A stretch of DNA of 35,026 bases from Elusimicrobiota bacterium. GTDB taxonomy: Bacteria; CAYTYR01; UBA6262. Position numbers and translations under genes: made by a program. The stretch lies in assembly GCA_003153935.1 (NCBI GenBank), contig PMCA01000035.1:1-35026 (forward strand), given 5' to 3'. This document shows, piece after piece, positions 18,965 through 29,309 of this stretch. Every line of letters begins with the position of its first letter. The stretch's first letter is position 1. Under the pieces are notes generated by a model, which searched no databases, had not been told where the DNA came from, and worked only from the letters and a program-made list of their open reading frames with translations.

Positions 18965-20350
18965 TTATTTCAGCTTTTTCAGGTACTGATCGATGGCCTG
19001 GGCGCTCTTCCTGGCCGCGCCCATAGCGGAGATCACCGTAGCTGACCCGGTGACGATATCGCCCCCGGCAAATACCCCTTCCTTAGCAGTCTGGCCGGTA
19101 TTCTCGTCCGCTTCCAGGTAGCCCCATTTATTGGTTTTAAGGTCGGGTGTGGTGGCGGATATCAAAGGATTGGCCGAGGTGCCGATGGCCATGATCACCT
19201 GGTCCACTTCCAGTATGAACTCGCTGCTCTTTAGAGGTATGGGACGGCAGCGCCCGCTTTCATCGCAAGCCCCCAGCTCCATCCGGATGCATTCCAGCCC
19301 TTTGACCCAGCCGTTACCGTCATCCATGATGCGCAGCGGATTGACCAGGAATTCCATGGCGATGCCTTCTTCTATGGCGTTCTCCACCTCTTCCAGGCGG
19401 GCCGGCATTTCTTTGCGCGACCTACGGTATACATTATATACTTTTTCCGCTCCCAAACGCAACGCTGTCCTGGCCGAGTCCATGGCTACGTTGCCGCCGC
19501 CTACCACCGCCACTTTTTTAGCGGCCTTGATCGGCGTATCATATTCCGGGAAACAGTAGGCTTTCATCAGGTTCACCCGGGTGAGAAATTCATTGGCGGA
19601 ATAAACGCCGTTCAGGTTTTCGCCGGGGATGTTCATGAACTTGGGAAAGCCCGCGCCGCTGGCCACGAATATCGCCCGGTAGCCGTATTTCTTCAGTTCA
19701 TCCAGGGTGAAGGTCCGGCCTATAAGCTGGTCCAGTTTCAATTCCACTCCCAGGGTCTTGATATATTCAACTTCCTGCTCCACAATTATCTTGGGTAACC
19801 GGAACTCCGGTATGCCGTAAACCAGTACTCCGCCCGGCTTGTGCAGGGCCTCGAATACCGTTACCTGGTAACCCATTCCTGCCAGGTCGCCGGCGATAGT
19901 CAGCCCCGCGGGACCGGCTCCTACCACGGCTACTTTTATCCCGTTAGTTTCCCGTTTTACGGGAATTCCTATCTTGCCAAAATCGGCAACTGCCCTTTCC
20001 AGCCGGCCGATGGAAACCGGTTCGTTCTTGCGTCCCAGGATACAGACTTTCTCGCATTGGTCCTCTTGCGGACAAACCCGGCCGCATACTCCCGGCAGGC
20101 TATTCTTGGACTTGATTATTTGCAAGGCGCCGTTAAAATCACCTTCCATGACAGAGGCGATGAATTGGGGTATGTCTACGCTTACCGGGCAACCTTCCAC
20201 GCAAAAAGGCTTTTTGCAGCCCAGGCAGCGCTTGGCTTCCAGGATAGCCTCTTCCTTCGTATAACCCAGCGCCACTTCTTTGAAGTTGCGGGCGCGCTCC
20301 GCGGGTTGCTGTTTGGACATGGAAACTTGTTTTGGGTTAATGGCTGGCAT
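18965..20350 (-). CDS. nfnB: NADH-dependent ferredoxin:NADP+ oxidoreductase, large subunit (NfnB; GltD-like)
   Basis: The large subunit of the bifurcating transhydrogenase that couples NADPH oxidation to reduction of NAD+ and ferredoxin, or the reverse. It resembles the glutamate synthase small subunit. The N-terminus has cysteine clusters CLGCKKPFCVEGCP and CGRVCPQEDQCEKVC for two [4Fe-4S] centres. An FAD-binding GAGPAGLTIAGDLA and a second dinucleotide fold GGGNVAMDSARTALRLGA follow, and the C-terminus has the GDIVTGSATVISAMGAAR flavin block. A GTG at 20365 could also start translation, but the ATG at 20350 gives MPAINPKQ, like known NfnB N-termini, and 461 residues. The start overlaps the end of nfnA. 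A plain glutamate synthase subunit is less likely because the NfnA partner is adjacent and no gltB is seen. Confidence 0.9.
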   Translation of the reverse strand: MPAINPKQVSMSKQQPAERARNFKEVALGYTKEEAILEAKRCLGCKKPFCVEGCPVSVDIPQFIASVMEGDFNGALQIIKSKNSLPGVCGRVCPQEDQCEKVCILGRKNEPVSIGRLERAVADFGKIGIPVKRETNGIKVAVVGAGPAGLTIAGDLAGMGYQVTVFEALHKPGGVLVYGIPEFRLPKIIVEQEVEYIKTLGVELKLDQLIGRTFTLDELKKYGYRAIFVASGAGFPKFMNIPGENLNGVYSANEFLTRVNLMKAYCFPEYDTPIKAAKKVAVVGGGNVAMDSARTALRLGAEKVYNVYRRSRKEMPARLEEVENAIEEGIAMEFLVNPLRIMDDGNGWVKGLECIRMELGACDESGRCRPIPLKSSEFILEVDQVIMAIGTSANPLISATTPDLKTNKWGYLEADENTGQTAKEGVFAGGDIVTGSATVISAMGAARKSAQAIDQYLKKLK

Positions 20351-21176
20351 TTTCACACCGCTCACATTTCTCTATAGATATCTTTTCTTCGGTCTTATAG
20401 GTGCCTAAGCGCTTCATCAACAGATCAAAATCCACCAGGTGGCCGTCGAAATCGGGCCCGTGGAAACAGGCGAATTTTGTTTCGTTATTTACGGAAACCC
20501 GGCAGACACCGCACATCCCAGTCCCGTCCAGCATGATCGGGTTCAGGCTGACCATGGTTTTAATACCGCATGACTTGGTCAAATGGCTCACTGCTTTCAT
20601 CATGATGACCGGACCGATGGCCACCACCAGGTCGATCTTTTCCTGCCGGCGGATCATTTCCTCCAGAGGCTTGGTTACCAAACCTTTAACCCCATATGAA
20701 CCGTCATCAGTGGTGATGATCAATTGGTCGCTGATAGCGCCGATCTCTTTTTCCCAGATGATAAATTCTTTGTTCCGGCCGCCGATGATGCTGATAACCT
20801 TGTTGCCCGCTTCCTTGAACGCGCGGGTGATCGGATGCATGGAAGCTGTGCCGACGCCTCCGCCCACGCAAACCACAGTCCCCAATTTAGCGATATGGGT
20901 CGGCTGGCCCAAGGGTCCCAGCAGGTTATGGATGTTATCCTGTTCCTTCATGGCTCCCAGGTCGATAGTGGTCTTGCCCACCTCCTGAAAAATTATGCTG
21001 ATAGTGCCGGCCTGACGGCTAAAATCAGCTACGGTCAGGGGTATCCTTTCTCCCTGCTCGTGAAGGCGTAAAATAACGAATTGGCCGGGTTGTACCGTTC
21101 TGGCTACGTCTGGTGCCTGGATATCTATATGCACGATTTTCGGTGCCAGCTGTTTCCTTTTTATTATCTTGGGCAT
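20337..21176 (-). CDS. nfnA: NADH-dependent ferredoxin:NADP+ oxidoreductase, small subunit (NfnA)
   Basis: A 279-residue flavoprotein of the ferredoxin-NADP reductase / dihydroorotate dehydrogenase electron-transfer family. It has the FAD-binding region (about 1-100, with GQFVILRLHEQGERIPLTVAD), an NAD-binding domain beginning VVCVGGGVGTASMHPI, and a C-terminal [2Fe-2S] site formed by an aspartate and three cysteines in LDGTGMCGVCRV...FACFHGPDFDGH. This Asp/Cys pattern is characteristic of NfnA. The overlap with nfnB confirms the pair. acetate kinase lies 12 bases upstream in the same operon. Balance of NADPH, NADH and ferredoxin would serve the IDH and malic enzyme encoded further upstream. 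Confidence 0.91.
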   Translation of the reverse strand: MPKIIKRKQLAPKIVHIDIQAPDVARTVQPGQFVILRLHEQGERIPLTVADFSRQAGTISIIFQEVGKTTIDLGAMKEQDNIHNLLGPLGQPTHIAKLGTVVCVGGGVGTASMHPITRAFKEAGNKVISIIGGRNKEFIIWEKEIGAISDQLIITTDDGSYGVKGLVTKPLEEMIRRQEKIDLVVAIGPVIMMKAVSHLTKSCGIKTMVSLNPIMLDGTGMCGVCRVSVNNETKFACFHGPDFDGHLVDFDLLMKRLGTYKTEEKISIEKCERCENASH

Positions 21177-21188
21177 CTATTGTCCTGT

Positions 21189-22394
21189 CTACTTCAACCG
21201 TTCAACTATATATCTGGTATCGCGGGCGATGATGATCTCTTCATTGGTTGGAATGACCAGCACTTTGGTTTTGGCGGATTTGGTGCTGATCAGGCCTTCC
21301 TGGCCTATCATGCTCTTATTCTTGGTCTTGTCGATCTTGACGCCGATGCATTCCAGGTTTTCGCAGGCCAACTCACGTATCGGCGCGGCGTTCTCACCGA
21401 TGCCGGCGGTAAAGATAATTGCGTCGGCCCCGCCCATGGCTCCATAATAAGCGCAAATGTATTTTTTCAGGCGATAGCAGAATATATCCACCGCCAGTTT
21501 GGCCCGTTCGTTGCCAGCTTCCATCTGCTTAAGGATCTCGCGCATATCGTTGGAAATGCCGCTGATGCCGTCCAATCCGCTGTGCTTGTTAAGCAGGTTA
21601 TCTATTTCGCTGATGGACAATCCCTGTTTGGAGGCCATGGTGAAAATAATGGCCGGGTCGATGTCACCGCAACGCGTACCCATAACCAATCCCTCCAGCG
21701 GCGTATAACCCATGGAAGTGTCGAATGATTTGCCGTTCTTGATCGCCGTGATACTGCACCCGTTACCCATATGGCAGGTGATCAGGTTCAAGGTTTCGTA
21801 TTTTTTCTTCAATATTTTAGCGGCGCGCTCGCTGACATAACGATGGCTGGTGCCGTGGAAACCGTAGCGGCGGATATTATTAAGCTGGTATTCGCTGTAA
21901 GGCAGGGCATACAGGAAGCTGATCATGGGCATGCTTTGGTGGAAGGCCGTGTCAAAAACCGCGACCTGGGGGATTCCCGGCAGCAATTCCGCGCAGGCGT
22001 TTATACCGCGGAAATTGTGCGGGTTATGCAATGGCGCCAGGTCGATGCACTCCCTGATCTTATCCTTGACCTCTTCCGTTATCAATACCGAAGTGGCGAA
22101 CTTCTCGCCCCCGTGCACTACCCGGTGCCCCACCGCCCGGATCTCGGACTTATCGGGTATCACGCCGTAATCCGCGTGGATCAGGGTATTAATTACCAGT
22201 TCTATAGCCTTGGCGTGATCGGGAATGTCGCTGACCGATTTAATGTTCTTGCCGTCCTCGAAACAATGAGTCAGCACGGCATGGTCGGTACCCACCCGTT
22301 CCACCTGGCCCTTAGCCAGCACCCGCTCCGTAGTCATGCTGATAAACTGGTATTTTACGCTGGAAGAGCCGCAATTCAAAACTAAGATCTTCAT
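21189..22394 (-). CDS. ackA: Acetate kinase
   Basis: Converts acetyl phosphate and ADP to acetate and ATP, the substrate-level phosphorylation step of acetogenic fermentation. The 401 residues carry the family signatures: MKILVLNCGSSSVKYQ at the N-terminus, VGHRVVHGGEKF (about 107-118), FDTAFHQSMP, GFHGTSHRYVS, MGYTPLEGLVMGTRCGDIDP and TAGIGENAAPIRE. Length is standard and no key residue is missing. No phosphotransacetylase gene lies in the window. It sits between ndk and nfnA with short spacers, so ATP production and redox balancing are co-expressed. Confidence 0.97.
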   Translation of the reverse strand: MKILVLNCGSSSVKYQFISMTTERVLAKGQVERVGTDHAVLTHCFEDGKNIKSVSDIPDHAKAIELVINTLIHADYGVIPDKSEIRAVGHRVVHGGEKFATSVLITEEVKDKIRECIDLAPLHNPHNFRGINACAELLPGIPQVAVFDTAFHQSMPMISFLYALPYSEYQLNNIRRYGFHGTSHRYVSERAAKILKKKYETLNLITCHMGNGCSITAIKNGKSFDTSMGYTPLEGLVMGTRCGDIDPAIIFTMASKQGLSISEIDNLLNKHSGLDGISGISNDMREILKQMEAGNERAKLAVDIFCYRLKKYICAYYGAMGGADAIIFTAGIGENAAPIRELACENLECIGVKIDKTKNKSMIGQEGLISTKSAKTKVLVIPTNEEIIIARDTRYIVERLK

Positions 22395-22422: not shown

Positions 22423-22869
22423 TTATTTTTTATAAATTTTATCTTCCCAGTCAAAAATCTCCGCAGCGGTGAAAAAGAAAGCTATCTCGCGCTCAGCTGA
22501 TTTCACGCTATCCGAACCATGGACGGCGTTGTGACGGTTATCCGTCGCGTAGTTGCGCCTGACCGTGCCTTCCTTCGCCTGCGCCGGATCGGTGGCGCCG
22601 ATCACTTCCCGGGCTCTTTTTATAGCGTCCGGGCCCTCCCAGGCCATGGCCAGGCAAGGATTGCTGGTCATGAACTGCACCAGCGGCTCATAAAATTCCT
22701 TGCCTCTATGCTCGGCGTAGAACTGTTCTACCTGTTCCCGGCCCAAATGAATGAACTTCGCTCCCACTAACCTGAGGTTATTTTCTTCAAAAGCGCTGAT
22801 TATCCGTCCGCCCACTTTCTTGCTGAGCGCGTCCGGTTTTATGATAATTAACGTTCTCTCCTGGTTCAT
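22423..22869 (-). CDS. ndk: Nucleoside diphosphate kinase
   Basis: Transfers gamma-phosphate between nucleoside triphosphates and diphosphates through a phosphohistidine. The 148-residue protein begins ERTLIIIKPDAL. The active-site histidine is H117 in NAVHGSDSVKSAEREIAFFF, the family signature; the more common NRNIIHGSDS is slightly varied to DNRHNAVHGSDS. Length is slightly longer than the 140-residue norm. The start overlaps the fumarase beta stop as ATGA, so translation is likely coupled. Confidence 0.97.
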   Translation of the reverse strand: MNQERTLIIIKPDALSKKVGGRIISAFEENNLRLVGAKFIHLGREQVEQFYAEHRGKEFYEPLVQFMTSNPCLAMAWEGPDAIKRAREVIGATDPAQAKEGTVRRNYATDNRHNAVHGSDSVKSAEREIAFFFTAAEIFDWEDKIYKK

Positions 22870-23372
22870 TTATAGATACTTCTCCCCCTGCTATCTACCC
22901 CTACGATCGCCGGAAAATCTTCCAAGCTTAATTCATAAACCGCTTCGCAACCTAGGTCAGGGTAGGCTACCATCCGGGCGGCTTTCACCGTCTCCGACAA
23001 CAGAGCCCCGCAACCTCCGGGAGCAATGAGATAAACCGCTTTATTCCGGCGCAGCGAGGAAACCACCTCCGCGCCAAGCTTGCCTTTACCTATGACTGCC
23101 TTCAGCCCTTTTTCCAGCAATATCGGGGTATAGGCATCCATGCGGCTGGAAGTAGTCGGGCCGCAAGAACCGATCACCGTCCCGGGTTTGGGCGGTGTCG
23201 GGCCGGTATGAAAAATAGTCTGTCCTTTGATCATAAAAGGCAATTTTTTTACCATCCGGGCATGGGCAGCATCACGCGCAGTGTAAACTGTCCCCGATAA
23301 TAATACTTCATCGCCGGCTTTTAATTTCCTTATATCTTTTCCTGTTAGAGGTAACTGTATGTTGTGTATCAT
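22866..23372 (-). CDS. Class I fumarate hydratase, beta subunit
   Basis: The C-terminal half of the iron-sulfur class I fumarase, here as a separate polypeptide of 168 residues. It carries LKAGDEVLLSGTVYTARDAAHARM, the GPTPPKPGTVIGSCGPTTSSRMD block (about 57-79) used in substrate binding, and IGKGKLGAE. The alpha subunit is encoded four bases upstream, matching the two-subunit form of anaerobes and archaea. The related L(+)-tartrate dehydratase has the same arrangement, but the malic enzyme and TCA genes alongside favour fumarase. It overlaps ndk by four bases. Confidence 0.93.
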   Translation of the reverse strand: MIHNIQLPLTGKDIRKLKAGDEVLLSGTVYTARDAAHARMVKKLPFMIKGQTIFHTGPTPPKPGTVIGSCGPTTSSRMDAYTPILLEKGLKAVIGKGKLGAEVVSSLRRNKAVYLIAPGGCGALLSETVKAARMVAYPDLGCEAVYELSLEDFPAIVGVDSRGRSIYK

Positions 23373-23376
23373 GATT

Positions 23377-24219
23377 TTATATTATTATCGTCCTGGCCCG
23401 GTGGCACCAGCAGCCGATATTCACGGCGACGGGCAGGCCGGCGATGTGCGTAGGAAAAGTCTTAATATTCACTTTCAACGCCGTAGTAACCCCGCCTAAT
23501 CCTGCCGGACCGATCCTTAATTTATTTATGTCGCTAAGTATTTCCCTGGATAATTTCGCTAACTCTTTATCCCTGACCCGTTGACCTCCGCCTATTTCGA
23601 ACAAAGCTTCTTTGGCCAGCAAGGCCGCGTAATCCATAGTACCGCCGATGCCTACGCCTACGACTATGGGAGGACAGGGATTGGCCCCGGCGGTTTTAAC
23701 CGCTGCGAGAACAAAATCCTTCACTCCTTTGACCCCGGTGGCAGGCTTCAGCATCTTTACCTGTCCCATATTTTCACTGCCGAAACCTTTCGGCACGACG
23801 GTGATCTTGATCTTGCTCCCGGAGACTATCCGGCTATAAATGACCGCGGGCGTATTGGTCTGCGTGTTTTTCCTGGTCAATGGATCAACCACTGACTGCC
23901 TCAGATAACCGTCCAGACAGGCTTCAGCCAAGCCGAGATTGATGGCGGTATTCAGATCACCGCCGGTGATCCTGACGTCTTGCCCTATTTCCGCGAAAAC
24001 GACCGGCAAACCTGTATCCTGGCAAACGGGCATTTTCCTGGCTTCAGCTATACGGCAATTATCAATGATCTGGCTTAACGCTTTAGCCGCTAATCTATGG
24101 GTTTCTTTGGCCAGAGCCCTTTTTAACCCGGAGGTTTGCTCAGGAGTTATCCGGGTATTGGCTTCAATGTATATTTTTTTTACCTGGCTGGTAATGATCT
24201 TTGCGTTAACGGTTCTCAT
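23377..24219 (-). CDS. Class I fumarate hydratase, alpha subunit
   Basis: The iron-sulfur catalytic half of class I fumarase, interconverting fumarate and malate. The 280 residues show three conserved cysteines fit to bind a [4Fe-4S] cluster: C66 in MPVCQDTG, C182 in GANPCPP and C270 in NIGCWCHRA. GGT residues in VGVGIGGTMDYAALLAKEAL and the IGPAGLGGVTTAL segment are typical. The ATG at 24219 overlaps the malic enzyme stop by four bases. This oxygen-sensitive enzyme class fits an anaerobic organism. Tartrate dehydratase is the main alternative. Confidence 0.94.
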   Translation of the reverse strand: MRTVNAKIITSQVKKIYIEANTRITPEQTSGLKRALAKETHRLAAKALSQIIDNCRIAEARKMPVCQDTGLPVVFAEIGQDVRITGGDLNTAINLGLAEACLDGYLRQSVVDPLTRKNTQTNTPAVIYSRIVSGSKIKITVVPKGFGSENMGQVKMLKPATGVKGVKDFVLAAVKTAGANPCPPIVVGVGIGGTMDYAALLAKEALFEIGGGQRVRDKELAKLSREILSDINKLRIGPAGLGGVTTALKVNIKTFPTHIAGLPVAVNIGCWCHRARTIII

Positions 24220-25460
24220 TTGGCTCCGATCAAAAGGCGCGCCTGTTTTTCAATTTCCCGGCCGCTTTTTTTCAAACGCGCCACTTCGGTCCTGCTCGCC
24301 TCTTCCGCGACGGCCCTGGCTACTTTGGGCGCGATGCGCAGGTCATAAGCTTTGGGTATGAAATATTCCGGGCTGAGTTCCCTGGCGGGTATTATATCAG
24401 CGATCGCCAGACTGGCGGCTATCTTCATCTCATCATTGATCATATCCGCCCGCACATCCAGAGCGCCCCGGAATATCCCGGGGAAAGCCAGCACATTATT
24501 CACCTGGTTAGGAAAGTCACTGCGTCCGGTAGCGATAAATTTGGCTCCGGCTTTTTTAGCCAGGGAAGGCAGGATCTCAGGATCAGGGTTAGCCATGGCG
24601 AAAATAACCGGGTTCTTGGCCATGGACCTGACCATAGTTTCAGTCAGAACATTGCCCACCGAAACTCCCAGGAAAATGTCCGCGCCTTTCATGACCTGGG
24701 CCAGGTCGCCTTTTATCTCTTCAGGATTGGTTATCTTGGCTATCTCCGCCTTGGCGGGGTTCATTCCCTCGGCCCGGCCGTCATAAATGCTGCCGTGGGT
24801 ATCGCAAAGAATAATATTCCTGAAGCCGTATTTTAACATGAATTTAGTGATAGCTATACCAGCCGCGCCGGCGCCGTTCATGACCACTTTTACCTTTTCC
24901 GGTTTGCGTTTATCCATCTTCAATACATTTATCAGGCCGGCCAGCACCACTACCGCCGTACCATGCTGGTCATCGTGGAAAATAGGGATATCGGTCTCCC
25001 TGATCAATCTTTCTTCGATGGCGAAACAGCGCGGCGCGGAGATGTCTTCCAGGTTAATGCCGCCGAAGCTGGGGGCCAGGTATTTGACCGTGTTCACGAT
25101 CTGGTCCACATCCTGCGTGGCCAGGCACAGCGGGAAAGCGTCAACGCCACCGAAAGTCTTGAATAACACCGCTTTGCCTTCCATTACGGGCATGGCCGCT
25201 TCGGGACCGATATTACCCAATCCCAGAACAGCGCTGCCGTCGCTTACTACGGCGACCATATTGGCGCGTGAGGTATATTTATAACTCAGTTCCTTTTTCC
25301 GGGCGATGGCCAGGCAGGGCTCCGCTACGCCGGGCGTATAAAGCAATCCCAGGTTATCTTTCGTCACCGGGGTTTTACTCTTAACGACTATCTTGCCATG
25401 CAGTTTTTCATGCAACGCCATGGCTTCTTTTTTGTAATCTATTTTTTTGGCTGCTTTCAT
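24216..25460 (-). CDS. Malic enzyme (malate dehydrogenase, oxaloacetate-decarboxylating)
   Basis: Interconverts malate and pyruvate plus CO2 with NAD(P)+. The 414-residue protein is of the short bacterial type without a phosphotransacetylase-like extension. Blocks in order: LLYTPGVAEPCLAI (about 48-61), VVSDGSAVLGLGNIGPEAAMPVMEGKAVLFK, DIPIFHDDQHGTA (metal site), VVMNGAGAAGIAI (dinucleotide fold), FAMANPDPEI and GRSDFPNQVNNVLAFPGIFRGALDV. Cofactor choice cannot be read by eye. It lies two bases after the IDH gene and overlaps fumA. With fumarase it connects fumarate to pyruvate through malate. Confidence 0.95.
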   Translation of the reverse strand: MKAAKKIDYKKEAMALHEKLHGKIVVKSKTPVTKDNLGLLYTPGVAEPCLAIARKKELSYKYTSRANMVAVVSDGSAVLGLGNIGPEAAMPVMEGKAVLFKTFGGVDAFPLCLATQDVDQIVNTVKYLAPSFGGINLEDISAPRCFAIEERLIRETDIPIFHDDQHGTAVVVLAGLINVLKMDKRKPEKVKVVMNGAGAAGIAITKFMLKYGFRNIILCDTHGSIYDGRAEGMNPAKAEIAKITNPEEIKGDLAQVMKGADIFLGVSVGNVLTETMVRSMAKNPVIFAMANPDPEILPSLAKKAGAKFIATGRSDFPNQVNNVLAFPGIFRGALDVRADMINDEMKIAASLAIADIIPARELSPEYFIPKAYDLRIAPKVARAVAEEASRTEVARLKKSGREIEKQARLLIGAK

Positions 25461-25462
25461 GG

Positions 25463-26521
25463 TTATTTCCCTAACTTCTTAATGATCGCGTCAGCCATCT
25501 GGCTGGTACCGGCTTTGCCGCCCAGGTCGTAAGTCACGTCTTTACCTTCGCCGATAACATCGGTAACCGCCTGGTAAAGGGCCAGGCTTTTCTCCGTTTC
25601 GCCGAGATAATCCAGCATCAGCGCCGCGGACAAAATAAGAGCTGTGGGATTTACCTTGTTCTGCCCCTTGTACTTGGGAGCGCTGCCGTGCACTGCTTCA
25701 AATACCGCCGTGTCCCTGCCGAAATTCGCCCCCGGAGCTATGCCCAGGCCGCCGATAAGACCGGCGCACAGGTCAGAAATGATGTCCCCGTACAAGTTGG
25801 GTAAAACCATTACGTCGTAGAGATGGGGTTTCTGCACCAGCTGCATGCACATGTTATCGATCAAGCGTTCTTCATACTCGATATTCGGGTATTGTTTGGC
25901 TACTTCCCTGGCCACATCGAAGAACAGGCCATCGGTATACTTCATAATATTGGCTTTGGTTACCGCGGTCACTTTGCGGCGTTTATGTTTAATAGCGTAG
26001 TTAAAAGCGAATTCCACTATCTGCCGGCTGCCTTCACGGGAGATCGGCTTGATGCTGATAGCGGCGCCCGGCCTTATCTTGCCTTTGGCCTGCGTGATGA
26101 TGGCTTCGGCTTCCGGCGACCCGCTGGCATACTCCACTCCGGCGTACAGGTCTTCGGTATTTTCCCTGACTACTACCAGGTCAATGTCCTTATAATAAGA
26201 TTTAACCCCAACGATAGACCGGCAGGGACGCAAGCAGGTATACAAGTCCAGCTCTTTGCGCAACGCCACGTTGACACTGCGGAATCCGGTGCCTATGGGC
26301 GTGGTTAACGGCCCTTTGAGCGCTACTTTATTTTTGCGCACGGACGCCAGCACAGCCTCCGGCAGCGGCGTACCGTATTTTTCGATCACGTCGGCTCCCG
26401 CTTCCTGTACGTCCCAATTTATCTTGACACCGGTGGCTTCCACCACCCGGCGGGTAGCTTCGCTGATCTCTTGCCCGATCCCGTCTCCCGGGATCAATGT
26501 CACGTTATAAACTTTACTCAC
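25463..26521 (-). CDS. Isocitrate dehydrogenase (IDH/IPMDH family)
   Basis: Oxidatively decarboxylates isocitrate to 2-oxoglutarate. The 352-residue length is that of NAD-type IDH and IPMDH enzymes. [17 protein letters not shown] (69-84; S82 and N84) and [17 protein letters not shown] match IDH rather than isopropylmalate dehydrogenase, as does [13 protein letters not shown] (118-130). The [19 protein letters not shown] block is strongly conserved. The cofactor region reads [16 protein letters not shown], with K283-Y284 at positions that favour NADP in E. coli IDH, followed by TYDLGG (330-335), more like NAD types. So NADP use is suggested but not certain. The start codon is GTG at 26521 with GGAAGGGG eight bases upstream. 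It lies between the response regulator and malic enzyme. Leucine synthesis (LeuB) is less likely. Confidence 0.88.
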
Positions 26522-26550: not shown

Positions 26551-27501
26551 TTATTCTTTTCCTGGTTCCGCCCGGCGGTCCTTGATATAGACGCTCTTAG
26601 AGAACGTCTTGGCGTAATTACCCAGGTCGGCGCCGATTTCTCCTATCTCTTCCGCGCATTCCAGGCTGATCCGCTCGTTCGTGACTACGGCTATGTACAT
26701 GGTCATGACCGGGAATTTATTGATATTGCCCTTGCGGTCGTGGCTGATGATATAGCCCCGGGAGCGGTCCTCAGCCGAATAGAAACCGGTGATACCAGCG
26801 TCAAAGCGACTGAGCACTTCCTGGCATATCTTGTCGACGATATCTGGTCCGCAGATGATAATAAAGTCATCCCCGCCGATATGTCCGGCAAAATCATGCT
26901 CGCGCGCCATGGTTTTGACCACATTAGTGATCAATTCGCCGGTGAACTTAATGACCTTGTCCCCGTGCTCAAACCCGTATTTATCGTTAAAGGCCTTGAA
27001 CTGGCGCAGGTCGATATGGCAGACCGCCATTTTCTCTTTTTTCTCGATCCTCTTGTTGATCTCCTGCTTGATGGAAATATTTCCCGGCAGTTTGGTGAGC
27101 GGATTGGCGTCCAGTGAGGTCATAGTGCGCCGCAGTATCATCTTGATCCGCGCCAGCAGTTCAATGGGCTCGAACGGTTTGACGACATAATCATCTACAC
27201 CGGCTTCAATACCTTTCACCTTATCGTCCACCTCGCCTTTGGCGGTCAGCATGATGATCGGGATGTGCCGGTATAAAATATCACCTTTCAGGATCTTGGC
27301 CACTTCATGCCCGTTCATTTCCGGCATCATGAAATCCAGGATGATCAGGTCGGGAGGCATGCTCTTCACCTGATCGATCGCTTCCTTACCGTTAAACGCC
27401 TGTTTTATTTCATAACCGTCATTCTCCAGCGTCAGCTTAAGTATCTCCTGGATGTCATAATTGTCGTCTACGGTAAGAATAGTCCCTTTACTAGCCGCCA
27501 T
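26551..27501 (-). CDS. Response regulator with degenerate GGDEF (GGDDF) domain
   Basis: A 316-residue two-domain protein. The receiver domain (about 5-122) has acidic D12-D13, phospho-acceptor D56 in [13 protein letters not shown]86 and K108. The GGDEF-type domain (about 130-300) has NPLTKLPG in place of [28 protein letters not shown] and GGDDF (209-213) in place of GGDEF. The c-di-GMP inhibitory-site motif RxxD (R200-D203) stands five residues before GGDDF, the expected spacing. Loss of the metal-binding glutamate makes cyclase activity doubtful, but c-di-GMP binding remains possible. No histidine kinase is nearby. It lies between the aconitase-like small subunit and IDH in the same transcript, an unusual place for a signalling gene. 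ATG 27501 with GAGGTG upstream. Confidence 0.9.
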
Positions 27502-27533: not shown

Positions 27534-28037
27534 CTATAAATTAAAACCATGATGTTTTTTGATATGTTCCACCAGTCCGCCGTCCTGCAGCAGGCTTAAC
27601 ATAACCGGGGGCAGCGGTTTGATCTTTATATCCTTATTCTGGGTAATATTAGTGACCACGCCTTTAGCCAGGTCCAGTTTCAATTCATCACCGTCCTTGA
27701 TCTGGTCGGTATCGCATTCGATCAAGGGCAAGCCGATATTGAAGGCGTTGCGATAGAATATGCGGGCGAAACTCTTGGCCATGACCGCGCTGATCCTGGC
27801 GTATTTGATGGCCTGGGGCGCCTGCTCACGGGATGATCCGCAGCCAAAATTCCTGCCGGCTACGATAAAATCGCCATCCTGGCGACGCTGGAAAAACCCT
27901 GGATCCAGATCCTCCATCACGTGGGTAGCCAGCTCGTTCGGGTCCTGGATCTTGAACTTATAGCGACCGCTGATTATATAATCGGTATTAATGTCGTTAT
28001 CCTGTGAGAACCTGCGCGCTTTACCTTGGAATATCAT
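27534..28037 (-). CDS. Aconitase/isopropylmalate dehydratase family, small subunit
   Basis: The swivel-domain subunit of a two-chain hydro-lyase. The 167 residues contain DINTDYIISGRYKFKIQDP (15-33), HVMEDLDPGF, the GRNFGCGSSREQAP motif (61-74) and the AKSFARIFYRNAFNIGLPLIECD block. The loop that sets substrate choice reads Y26-K-F-K instead of the YLRT-type loop I recall from archaeal homoaconitase. Gene context (IDH, fumarase, malic enzyme) suggests citrate/isocitrate as substrate, although isopropylmalate or homocitrate cannot be excluded. The ATG at 28037 follows GGAG by five bases, and the large subunit is encoded 15 bases upstream. Confidence 0.9.
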   Translation of the reverse strand: MIFQGKARRFSQDNDINTDYIISGRYKFKIQDPNELATHVMEDLDPGFFQRRQDGDFIVAGRNFGCGSSREQAPQAIKYARISAVMAKSFARIFYRNAFNIGLPLIECDTDQIKDGDELKLDLAKGVVTNITQNKDIKIKPLPPVMLSLLQDGGLVEHIKKHHGFNL

Positions 28038-28052
28038 TACGTCTCCTCATAA

Positions 28053-29309
28053 TTATTTAAGGTGTTTCCGGGGATCGGTGATCTTGCCGGTGATGACCGA
28101 AGCCGCGACGGTAGCCGGGGACGCCAGATATATAAACGCATTCGGGTTGCCCATCCGGCCTTTAAAGTTGCGGTTGGCAGTAGAGATCACATTTTCATTG
28201 TCTGACGGCACCCCGTTGTGCGTTCCCACGCAGGGTCCGCAGCCGGGCGTGACCAGGGTCGCGCCGGCATCCAGTAAAGTATCGATATATCCTTTTTTCA
28301 TGGTTTCCTTGAGAATCCAGTTGCTGGCCGGGGCGACGATCAGACGCACTCCCTTTTTTATCTTCTTACCCTTGAGTATCTTCGCGGCAATGCCGAAGTC
28401 TTCCACTCGGCCGTTGGTGCAGGTGCCGATAAACCCCTGGGCGATCTCCGTACCAGCCACTTCCCTGACCGGGCAGACATTATCCACTTGATGCGGCTTG
28501 GCTACCTGCGGTTCCAGTTTACTGACGTCAAAGATCAGGGTCCGGAAGTATTTGGCGTCGGGATCGGCGCTCTGGCACAGGAATTTTTTGCGGGAATGTT
28601 TCTTGACCCAATCCAAGGTCTTCTTATCGCACTCCATCAAGCCGAACTTAGCCCCCATCTCTATGGCCATATTGGATATGGTGAACCTGGCGTCCACGCT
28701 CAGGTTATTGATAGCCGGCCCGGTATACTCACAGGACATGTAAGTGGCCCCGTCCGCGCCTACCTGTCCGATTAGGAATAGTATCAGGTCCTTGCTGTAC
28801 ACGCCTTTGGGTAATTTACCGTTACAGATGAATTTTATAGACTCCGGTACTTTGAACCAGTTACGTCCGGTAGCGGCACAGGCGGCCACGTCCGTCGACC
28901 CCATGCCGGTGGCGGCGACATTAAGCGCGCCGTAAGTGCAGGTATGGGAATCCGCGCCTACGACCAGATCTCCGGGCACCACGAATCCTCTTTCCGGAAC
29001 TAATTGGTGGCAAACCCCCTGGCCGACATCAAAAAACTGCAGTTTCTGCTGCAGTGAAAAATCCCTAATTTTCTTATGTATGGCGCTGACGCCGCTATTC
29101 GGGCTGGGCGATGAATGGTCGATAATTACAGCCATCTTCTTGCTGTCAAAAACCCGGGTCGCGTTCATCTTTTTGAAACTGTCGATAACGATGCCGCTGG
29201 TGCCGTCCTGCCCCAGGCAAAAATCAATTTCCGCGATGACTATCTCGTTAGCCGCGACATTTTTGCCGGCGTGTTTGGAGAATATTTTTTCGATGATTGT
29301 TTGTCCCAA
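28053..29309 (-). CDS. Aconitase/isopropylmalate dehydratase family, large subunit
   Basis: The iron-sulfur catalytic subunit, 418 residues, the size of LeuC/homoaconitase-type chains rather than monomeric aconitase (about 650-900). Cluster cysteines are C297 in GTCTNGR, and C357 and C360 in TPGCGPCVG. Other marks are VIIDHSSPSPNSG (61-73), VVGADSHTCTYGALN (116-130) and the RNFKGRMGNPNAFIYLASPATVAAS tail. Translation opens at TTG 29309 with AGGAG six bases upstream. The enzyme should interconvert citrate and isocitrate given the IDH gene nearby; 3-isopropylmalate is the alternative. It is the first gene behind the promoter at 29345-29373. Confidence 0.9.
   Translation of the reverse strand: MGQTIIEKIFSKHAGKNVAANEIVIAEIDFCLGQDGTSGIVIDSFKKMNATRVFDSKKMAVIIDHSSPSPNSGVSAIHKKIRDFSLQQKLQFFDVGQGVCHQLVPERGFVVPGDLVVGADSHTCTYGALNVAATGMGSTDVAACAATGRNWFKVPESIKFICNGKLPKGVYSKDLILFLIGQVGADGATYMSCEYTGPAINNLSVDARFTISNMAIEMGAKFGLMECDKKTLDWVKKHSRKKFLCQSADPDAKYFRTLIFDVSKLEPQVAKPHQVDNVCPVREVAGTEIAQGFIGTCTNGRVEDFGIAAKILKGKKIKKGVRLIVAPASNWILKETMKKGYIDTLLDAGATLVTPGCGPCVGTHNGVPSDNENVISTANRNFKGRMGNPNAFIYLASPATVAASVITGKITDPRKHLK

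Follow-up and report, generated by a model that had tools for sequence, protein, structure and literature searches.

The stretch of DNA analyzed here, referred to as the window, covers positions 1 to 35,026 of contig PMCA01000035.1 (35,026 nt) from an Elusimicrobiota bacterium, whose genome has its highest-identity relatives among MAGs labelled 'bacterium' or Elusimicrobia/Elusimicrobiota. Its minus strand carries a run of genes for LeuC-type and LeuD-type proteins, the response regulator RR1, an isocitrate-dehydrogenase-type enzyme (IDH), malic enzyme, fumarase alpha and beta, NDK and AckA. The last two, which lie beyond fumarase on the same strand, were named from their translations without a family search. 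The RR1 open reading frame starts with ATG and encodes 316 aa. Its location between the aconitase-type and IDH genes, as described in the initial annotation, was confirmed. The features are as follows.

28053-29309, minus strand: LeuC/aconitase-type large subunit (family models)
27534-28037, minus strand: LeuD/aconitase-type small subunit, directly upstream of RR1 with a gap of 32 nt (family models; 5/5 genomes)
26551-27501, minus strand: RR1, response regulator of 316 aa with a receiver (residues 8-120) and a GGDDF domain (about residues 130-312) (ORF, Pfam, AlphaFold2 model)
27142-27480, minus strand: receiver domain, residues 8-120 (Pfam E 2.1e-30; D56 alignment)
26566-27117, minus strand: GGDDF domain as delimited by subfamily profile A2 (profile match)
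27079-27105, minus strand: NPLTKLPGN, residues 133-141, the subfamily version of DxLTxLPNR (sequence, alignment)
26893-26904, minus strand: REHD, residues 200-203, an I-site-like RxxD (alignment; Arg in 1/31)
26863-26877, minus strand: GGDDF motif, residues 209-213 (sequence, alignment)
25463-26521, minus strand: IDH, next gene downstream of RR1 with a gap of 29 nt (4/5 genomes)
24216-25460, minus strand: malic enzyme, same operon (family search)
22866-24219, minus strand: fumarase alpha (23377-24219) and beta (22866-23372), same operon (family search)

The same-strand cluster is extended by genes for AckA, a FAD/NAD-binding protein and an NADPH-glutamate-synthase-like protein (18965-22394, minus strand), whose order is kept in G004, one of five genomes of the candidate phylum used for comparison (G000-G004: that of the window, three from its family and one from its class). 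Promoter and terminator scores around the operon are close to those of shuffled sequence; judged by strand and intergenic gaps, RR1 is probably co-transcribed with the aconitase-type genes in this small candidate phylum.

The LeuC-/LeuD-type pair of the window matches aconitase/isopropylmalate family models, with scores below the leucine equivalog cut-offs (494.9 against 610.65 and 185.5 against 245.85). Both cut-offs are exceeded (707.1 and 261.2) by a second leuC-leuD-leuB-asd set of G004, which lies behind the apparent end of leuA; G000 carries matching second leuD-leuB-asd genes. The pair was therefore not taken to be a leucine isomerase and, given the missed cut-offs and the second leu sets, is probably the aconitase. 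Si-type citrate synthase was found in 0/5 genomes of the phylum, for which reason a homocitrate-synthase-like protein common to G000 and G004 (71% identical; L232:1483-2727(+) and L234:12442-13698(+)) can be regarded as a candidate Re-type citrate synthase. In G004, its gene lies directly before that of IDH.

Domain structure and subfamily signature of RR1

Both domains of RR1 are recognized by Pfam, the GGDEF-type domain at residues 134-229 (E 4.5e-15, 56.2 bits against a cut-off of 23.8), and this search returned no further domain, in particular none that is DNA-binding. The receiver landmarks D12, D13, D56, T86 and K108 are all present, and the phosphoacceptor D56 is invariant among the aligned members (31/31). 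In these two respects, an intact receiver and the lack of a DNA-binding domain, the initial annotation was correct. An AlphaFold2 model generated with 31 aligned relatives as input (mean pLDDT 92.9, pTM 0.76) places a long alpha5 helix (112-131) and a turn between the receiver and the second domain. Foldseek searches with this model gave the Rec-GGDEF enzymes WspR, DgcR and PleD as top whole-chain matches. The VIA-align results are dominated by receiver matches and also list PleD and WspR at a large rmsd, which is taken to be an effect of domain orientation. Profile A2 matched 48 PDB chains with a best score of 52.9 bits, and a solved structure of this subfamily was not recognized among them.

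The subfamily signature, derived from 31 aligned members that served for all residue counts, reads NPLTxLPGN ... FKAFNDxYGF..GD ... GHIGGDDF ... DRxG ... K. Invariant are G140, K169, H207, R256 and K298 (31 each), while D164, D211 and D212 occur in 30 members and N172 in 29. The guanine position 181 is occupied by Asp in 24 and by Asn in seven, and the first position of the NPLT motif by Asn in 28 and Ser in two. The catalytic Glu is replaced by Asp (D212) in 30/31 members and found at motif position 4 in none (0/31); GGDDF is also present in 46/46 proteins from stretches outside the phylum, a set that partly overlaps the aligned one. RR1 retains the metal ligands D164/D211, the guanine ligands N172/D181 and one phosphate contact (K298), a mapping onto PleD/DgcR residues that draws in part on the DgcR paper. 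The Arg of the second phosphate contact, four positions past the conserved Lys, is replaced by K302 in RR1 and by Gly in 18/31 members. From the receiver Lys to the Thr of PLT, 26/31 members have 28 residues and 5/31 have 29. For G001-G003, dN/dS is 0.040 in the GGDDF half and 0.059 in the receiver half (dS is saturated or unreliable in pairs with G000), and by this measure the GGDDF domain is under strong purifying selection.

Although RR1 does not match the canonical GG(D/E)EF cyclase motif ([G/A/S]G[D/E]E[F/Y]), its metal and guanine ligands are nevertheless present. A Hypr GGDEF domain (cGAMP synthase) would be expected to have Ser at the guanine position, and this assignment was rejected in view of D181 and the Asp or Asn of all 31 members. 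The initial annotation had listed GGDDF and a 'degenerate DPLTGLPN'. Both unusual motifs exist, the latter actually being NPLTKLPGN, but on the residue counts they are signatures of a subfamily rather than decay, and 'degenerate' is the wrong word.

The same annotation pointed to a correctly placed inhibitory RxxD. It is indeed found at residues 200-203, its Asp five residues ahead of GG at the usual spacing, but conservation fails already among the closest siblings, where Lys takes the place of the Arg in G001 and G003 and Asn in G004. Overall, the Asp is commoner (21/31) than the Arg, which occurs in 1/31 aligned members, namely RR1 itself, and in 0/46 members outside the phylum. Because of these counts, I-site sensing of c-di-GMP is not supported as a conserved role and was rejected as such; they argue against a shared function of this kind, though not against binding by RR1 alone.

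Linkage to metabolic genes and paralogues

The LeuD-type gene directly precedes RR1 in 5/5 genomes of the candidate phylum. Both are located together on one contig in G000, G001, G003 and G004, and in G002 the LeuD-type gene and the start of RR1 are found on contig C26, with the remainder of RR1 opening contig C105. IDH follows RR1 in 4/5 genomes; the exception is G004, whose IDH gene is found on a different contig beside the homocitrate-synthase-like gene. As gene order in the genomes of the same family follows the window over most of its length, they add little, and G004 represents the one independent comparison. It shows the order leuC-leuD-RR1-RR'-ndk-ackA-FNR-gltD-type, in which leuC-leuD-RR1 and ndk-ackA-FNR-gltD-type are kept at 51-62% protein identity; this cluster contains neither malic enzyme nor fumarase.

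Outside the phylum, blastp and tblastn searches with the window proteins as queries (E 1e-8) detected LeuC, LeuD, IDH, malic enzyme, fumarase, NDK or AckA in 0/51 stretches around members, of which six have less than 1.5 kb on one side; the sole hits were a glutamate-synthase-like protein in one stretch and an epimerase-like protein in another. Instead of citrate-cycle enzymes, the neighbours that recur here are histidine kinases, receivers and HDOD proteins. A histidine kinase is the immediate same-strand neighbour of 15/46 members, and such kinases account for 26 of the 660 non-member ORFs, those 15 included (the member itself was among the picked ORFs in 41 of the 51 stretches, so that the kinase count refers to 41 loci and 46 proteins). 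The metabolic link thus exists, but only within a single small lineage. Recurrence of the neighbour pair, proposed as a check in the initial annotation, holds within the phylum for the LeuD-type gene and, with one exception, for IDH, but not beyond it. The suggested control of the citrate branch accordingly keeps its link to the aconitase-type small subunit, and is weakened by the separate IDH of G004 and the outside stretches.

A paralogue with 44% identity to RR1, RR2, occurs in G000-G003. It shares a stretch with leuD2 and leuB in G000, G001 and G003 and with leuB in G002; the two genes that come after it in G000 are an exonuclease gene and a canonical GGDEF gene, in this order. The RR2 of G000 (L121:7975-8913(+), contig G000:C12) has Asn at the guanine position, with GN instead of GD. 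In G004, a tandem RR2-type copy lies behind RR1 (L128:4494-5417(-), contig G004:C184) and has GGVNF for GGDDF and NSLTKLPGD; its receiver is intact and the other family residues are kept. RR1 and RR2 form a supported group of nine in the tree (97/91), in which RR2 and the GGVNF copy are well joined (100/99) and RR1 and the RR1 of G004 weakly (83/34). Since the GGVNF copy groups with RR2, the RR1/RR2 duplication predates the divergence of the two families. The loss of the motif next to an intact receiver points to a non-enzymatic role that is probably played in at least one close relative.

Relation to known proteins and possible functions

By description, RR1 fits the group 0 Rec-GGDEF proteins. 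In Teixeira et al. (2021; PMC8041772), group 0 is defined by (S/N)PLT in place of DxLT, a receiver plus GGDEF in fewer than 360 residues and a linker outside the heptad length rule, and is set aside in structural work with its activation mechanism unknown. RR1 agrees in domain content, length (316 aa) and NPLT at residues 133-136, and differs from this description in its location within a metabolic operon. It shares domain order, fold and the metal, guanine and Lys contacts with DgcR of Leptospira biflexa, WspR and PleD. Unlike these enzymes (16-25% overall identity), it has GGDDF rather than GG(D/E)EF, NPLT rather than DxLT and K for the phosphate Arg, and its subfamily lacks a conserved I-site Arg.

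Activity of GGDDF proteins has been addressed in the literature, although a search returned no activity test of a Rec-GGDDF member. The Geobacter cGAMP/c-di-GMP synthase GSU1937 is, according to PMC8835794, needed for part of a cGAMP reporter signal and active in one of the tested fusions, with a dead GADDF mutant; the authors argue that Glu is the base and that Asp may keep function. It shares with RR1 a GGDDF motif in a GGDEF-type domain, but its guanine position is occupied by the Hypr Ser (PMC8835794), where RR1 has D181, and its architecture is transmembrane/HAMP. PA3258, described as a GGDDF/EAL protein and grouped here with the RapA-type EAL-CBS-GGDDF proteins, is cited in the same paper as inactive and without effect on c-di-GMP, and PMC12900916 describes apparent residual cyclase activity once its EAL site is mutated. 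It shares the GGDDF motif with RR1, in which the partner domain is instead a receiver; a subfamily member with EAL, CBS and GGDDF was found in L040.

On the best reading, to which we assign an even chance, RR1 is a phosphorylation-gated, GTP-binding and possibly active diguanylate-cyclase-like response regulator in an aconitase-type operon. A histidine kinase encoded elsewhere would be expected to phosphorylate D56, and the changed receiver dimer could then, via the alpha5 helix and the NPLT turn, alter the pairing of two GGDDF domains, a step modelled on DgcR, WspR and PleD, from which the linkage in RR1 differs. The GGDDF domain would most likely bind Mg-GTP through D164/D211 (metal), N172/D181 (guanine) and K298 (phosphate), and c-di-GMP would probably be made, though perhaps weakly, with D212 serving as base. 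Either this product or the dimer in its loaded state might act via PilZ proteins or protein contact, and the level of RR1 would follow the aconitase-type operon. Six strong GGDEF matches and 13 PilZ matches form the c-di-GMP kit of this genome. That RR1 controls aconitase or IDH directly through contact is speculation.

The cyclase reading is favoured by the shared signature with its group 0 mark and nearly constant spacing, the kept active-site residues, purifying selection, the structural matches, GSU1937, the residual activity of PA3258, the kinase neighbours outside the phylum and the c-di-GMP kit; Asp for Glu, the lost phosphate Arg, the GGVNF paralogue and the reported lack of a PA3258 effect on c-di-GMP speak against it. 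Its main rival is a non-catalytic group 0 regulator, in which the former active site holds GTP or c-di-GMP, or the domain has no ligand at all, and phosphorylation switches protein contact. The fixed change from Glu to Asp (30/31 and 46/46), the missing phosphate Arg and the retention of a sister paralogue devoid of the motif speak for such a switch, but metal and guanine ligands are kept in 24-30 of 31 members, beyond the need of a pure scaffold, and published work describes signs of activity for GGDDF proteins (PMC8835794, PMC12900916); we regard it as possible, if doubtful. That RR1 senses rather than makes c-di-GMP, as the initial annotation proposed, is not supported, given the Arg counts, the conserved catalytic-site ligands and the active GGDDF example of PMC8835794. 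In its full form, an I-site c-di-GMP receptor controlling aconitase and IDH by direct contact, this model could draw on the well-placed RxxD and the constant LeuD-type neighbour, and is rendered highly improbable by the Lys and Asn residues of the siblings, the Arg missing from all 46 outside members, the relocated IDH of G004 and the 51 outside stretches devoid of the linkage.

A further explanation, that RR1 has an unrelated target (surface, motility, cell cycle) and rides on the metabolic operon as a neighbour by history, falls just short of an even chance. It agrees with the kinases, receivers and HDOD proteins found next to members elsewhere and with RR2 lying beside an exonuclease gene, a canonical GGDEF gene beyond it. 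However, the gene order on both sides of RR1 has persisted in G004 in a cluster that lacks IDH, malic enzyme and fumarase, although this amounts to a single independent comparison. Because the explanation concerns the target of RR1, it is compatible with either a cyclase or a non-catalytic protein, and the likelihoods given here do not sum to a whole.

RR1 is an ordinary member of a widespread, little-studied class that is known already, and any wider importance would lie in this class: the domain profile matches 110/386 sampled genomes at E 1e-30 or better, with fixed GGDDF and NPLT, and annotations calling such proteins 'degenerate' may be wrong. Its architectures include Rec-GGDDF, Rec-GGDDF-EAL, Rec-GGDDF-Rec, HAMP-GGDDF and EAL-CBS-GGDDF. 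An improbable, more far-reaching proposal is that the domain forms its own functional class of nucleotidyl-cyclase-fold output (invariant H207, R256 and K298, fixed Asp base) and that the phylum member is phosphorylation-gated and wired into a citrate/2-oxoglutarate operon; if true, citrate-branch flux in this candidate phylum would be coupled to a kinase signal and to a cyclic or linear nucleotide. Among the outside loci, a Rec-GGDDF gene flanked by one for a histidine kinase and one that is RnfC/Nuo51-like (L134:4011-8082(-)) is another case beside energy metabolism, and two outside genomes (G288 and G151) carry three tandem Rec-GGDDF genes (L219:1282-4168(+) and L228:7141-10132(+)).
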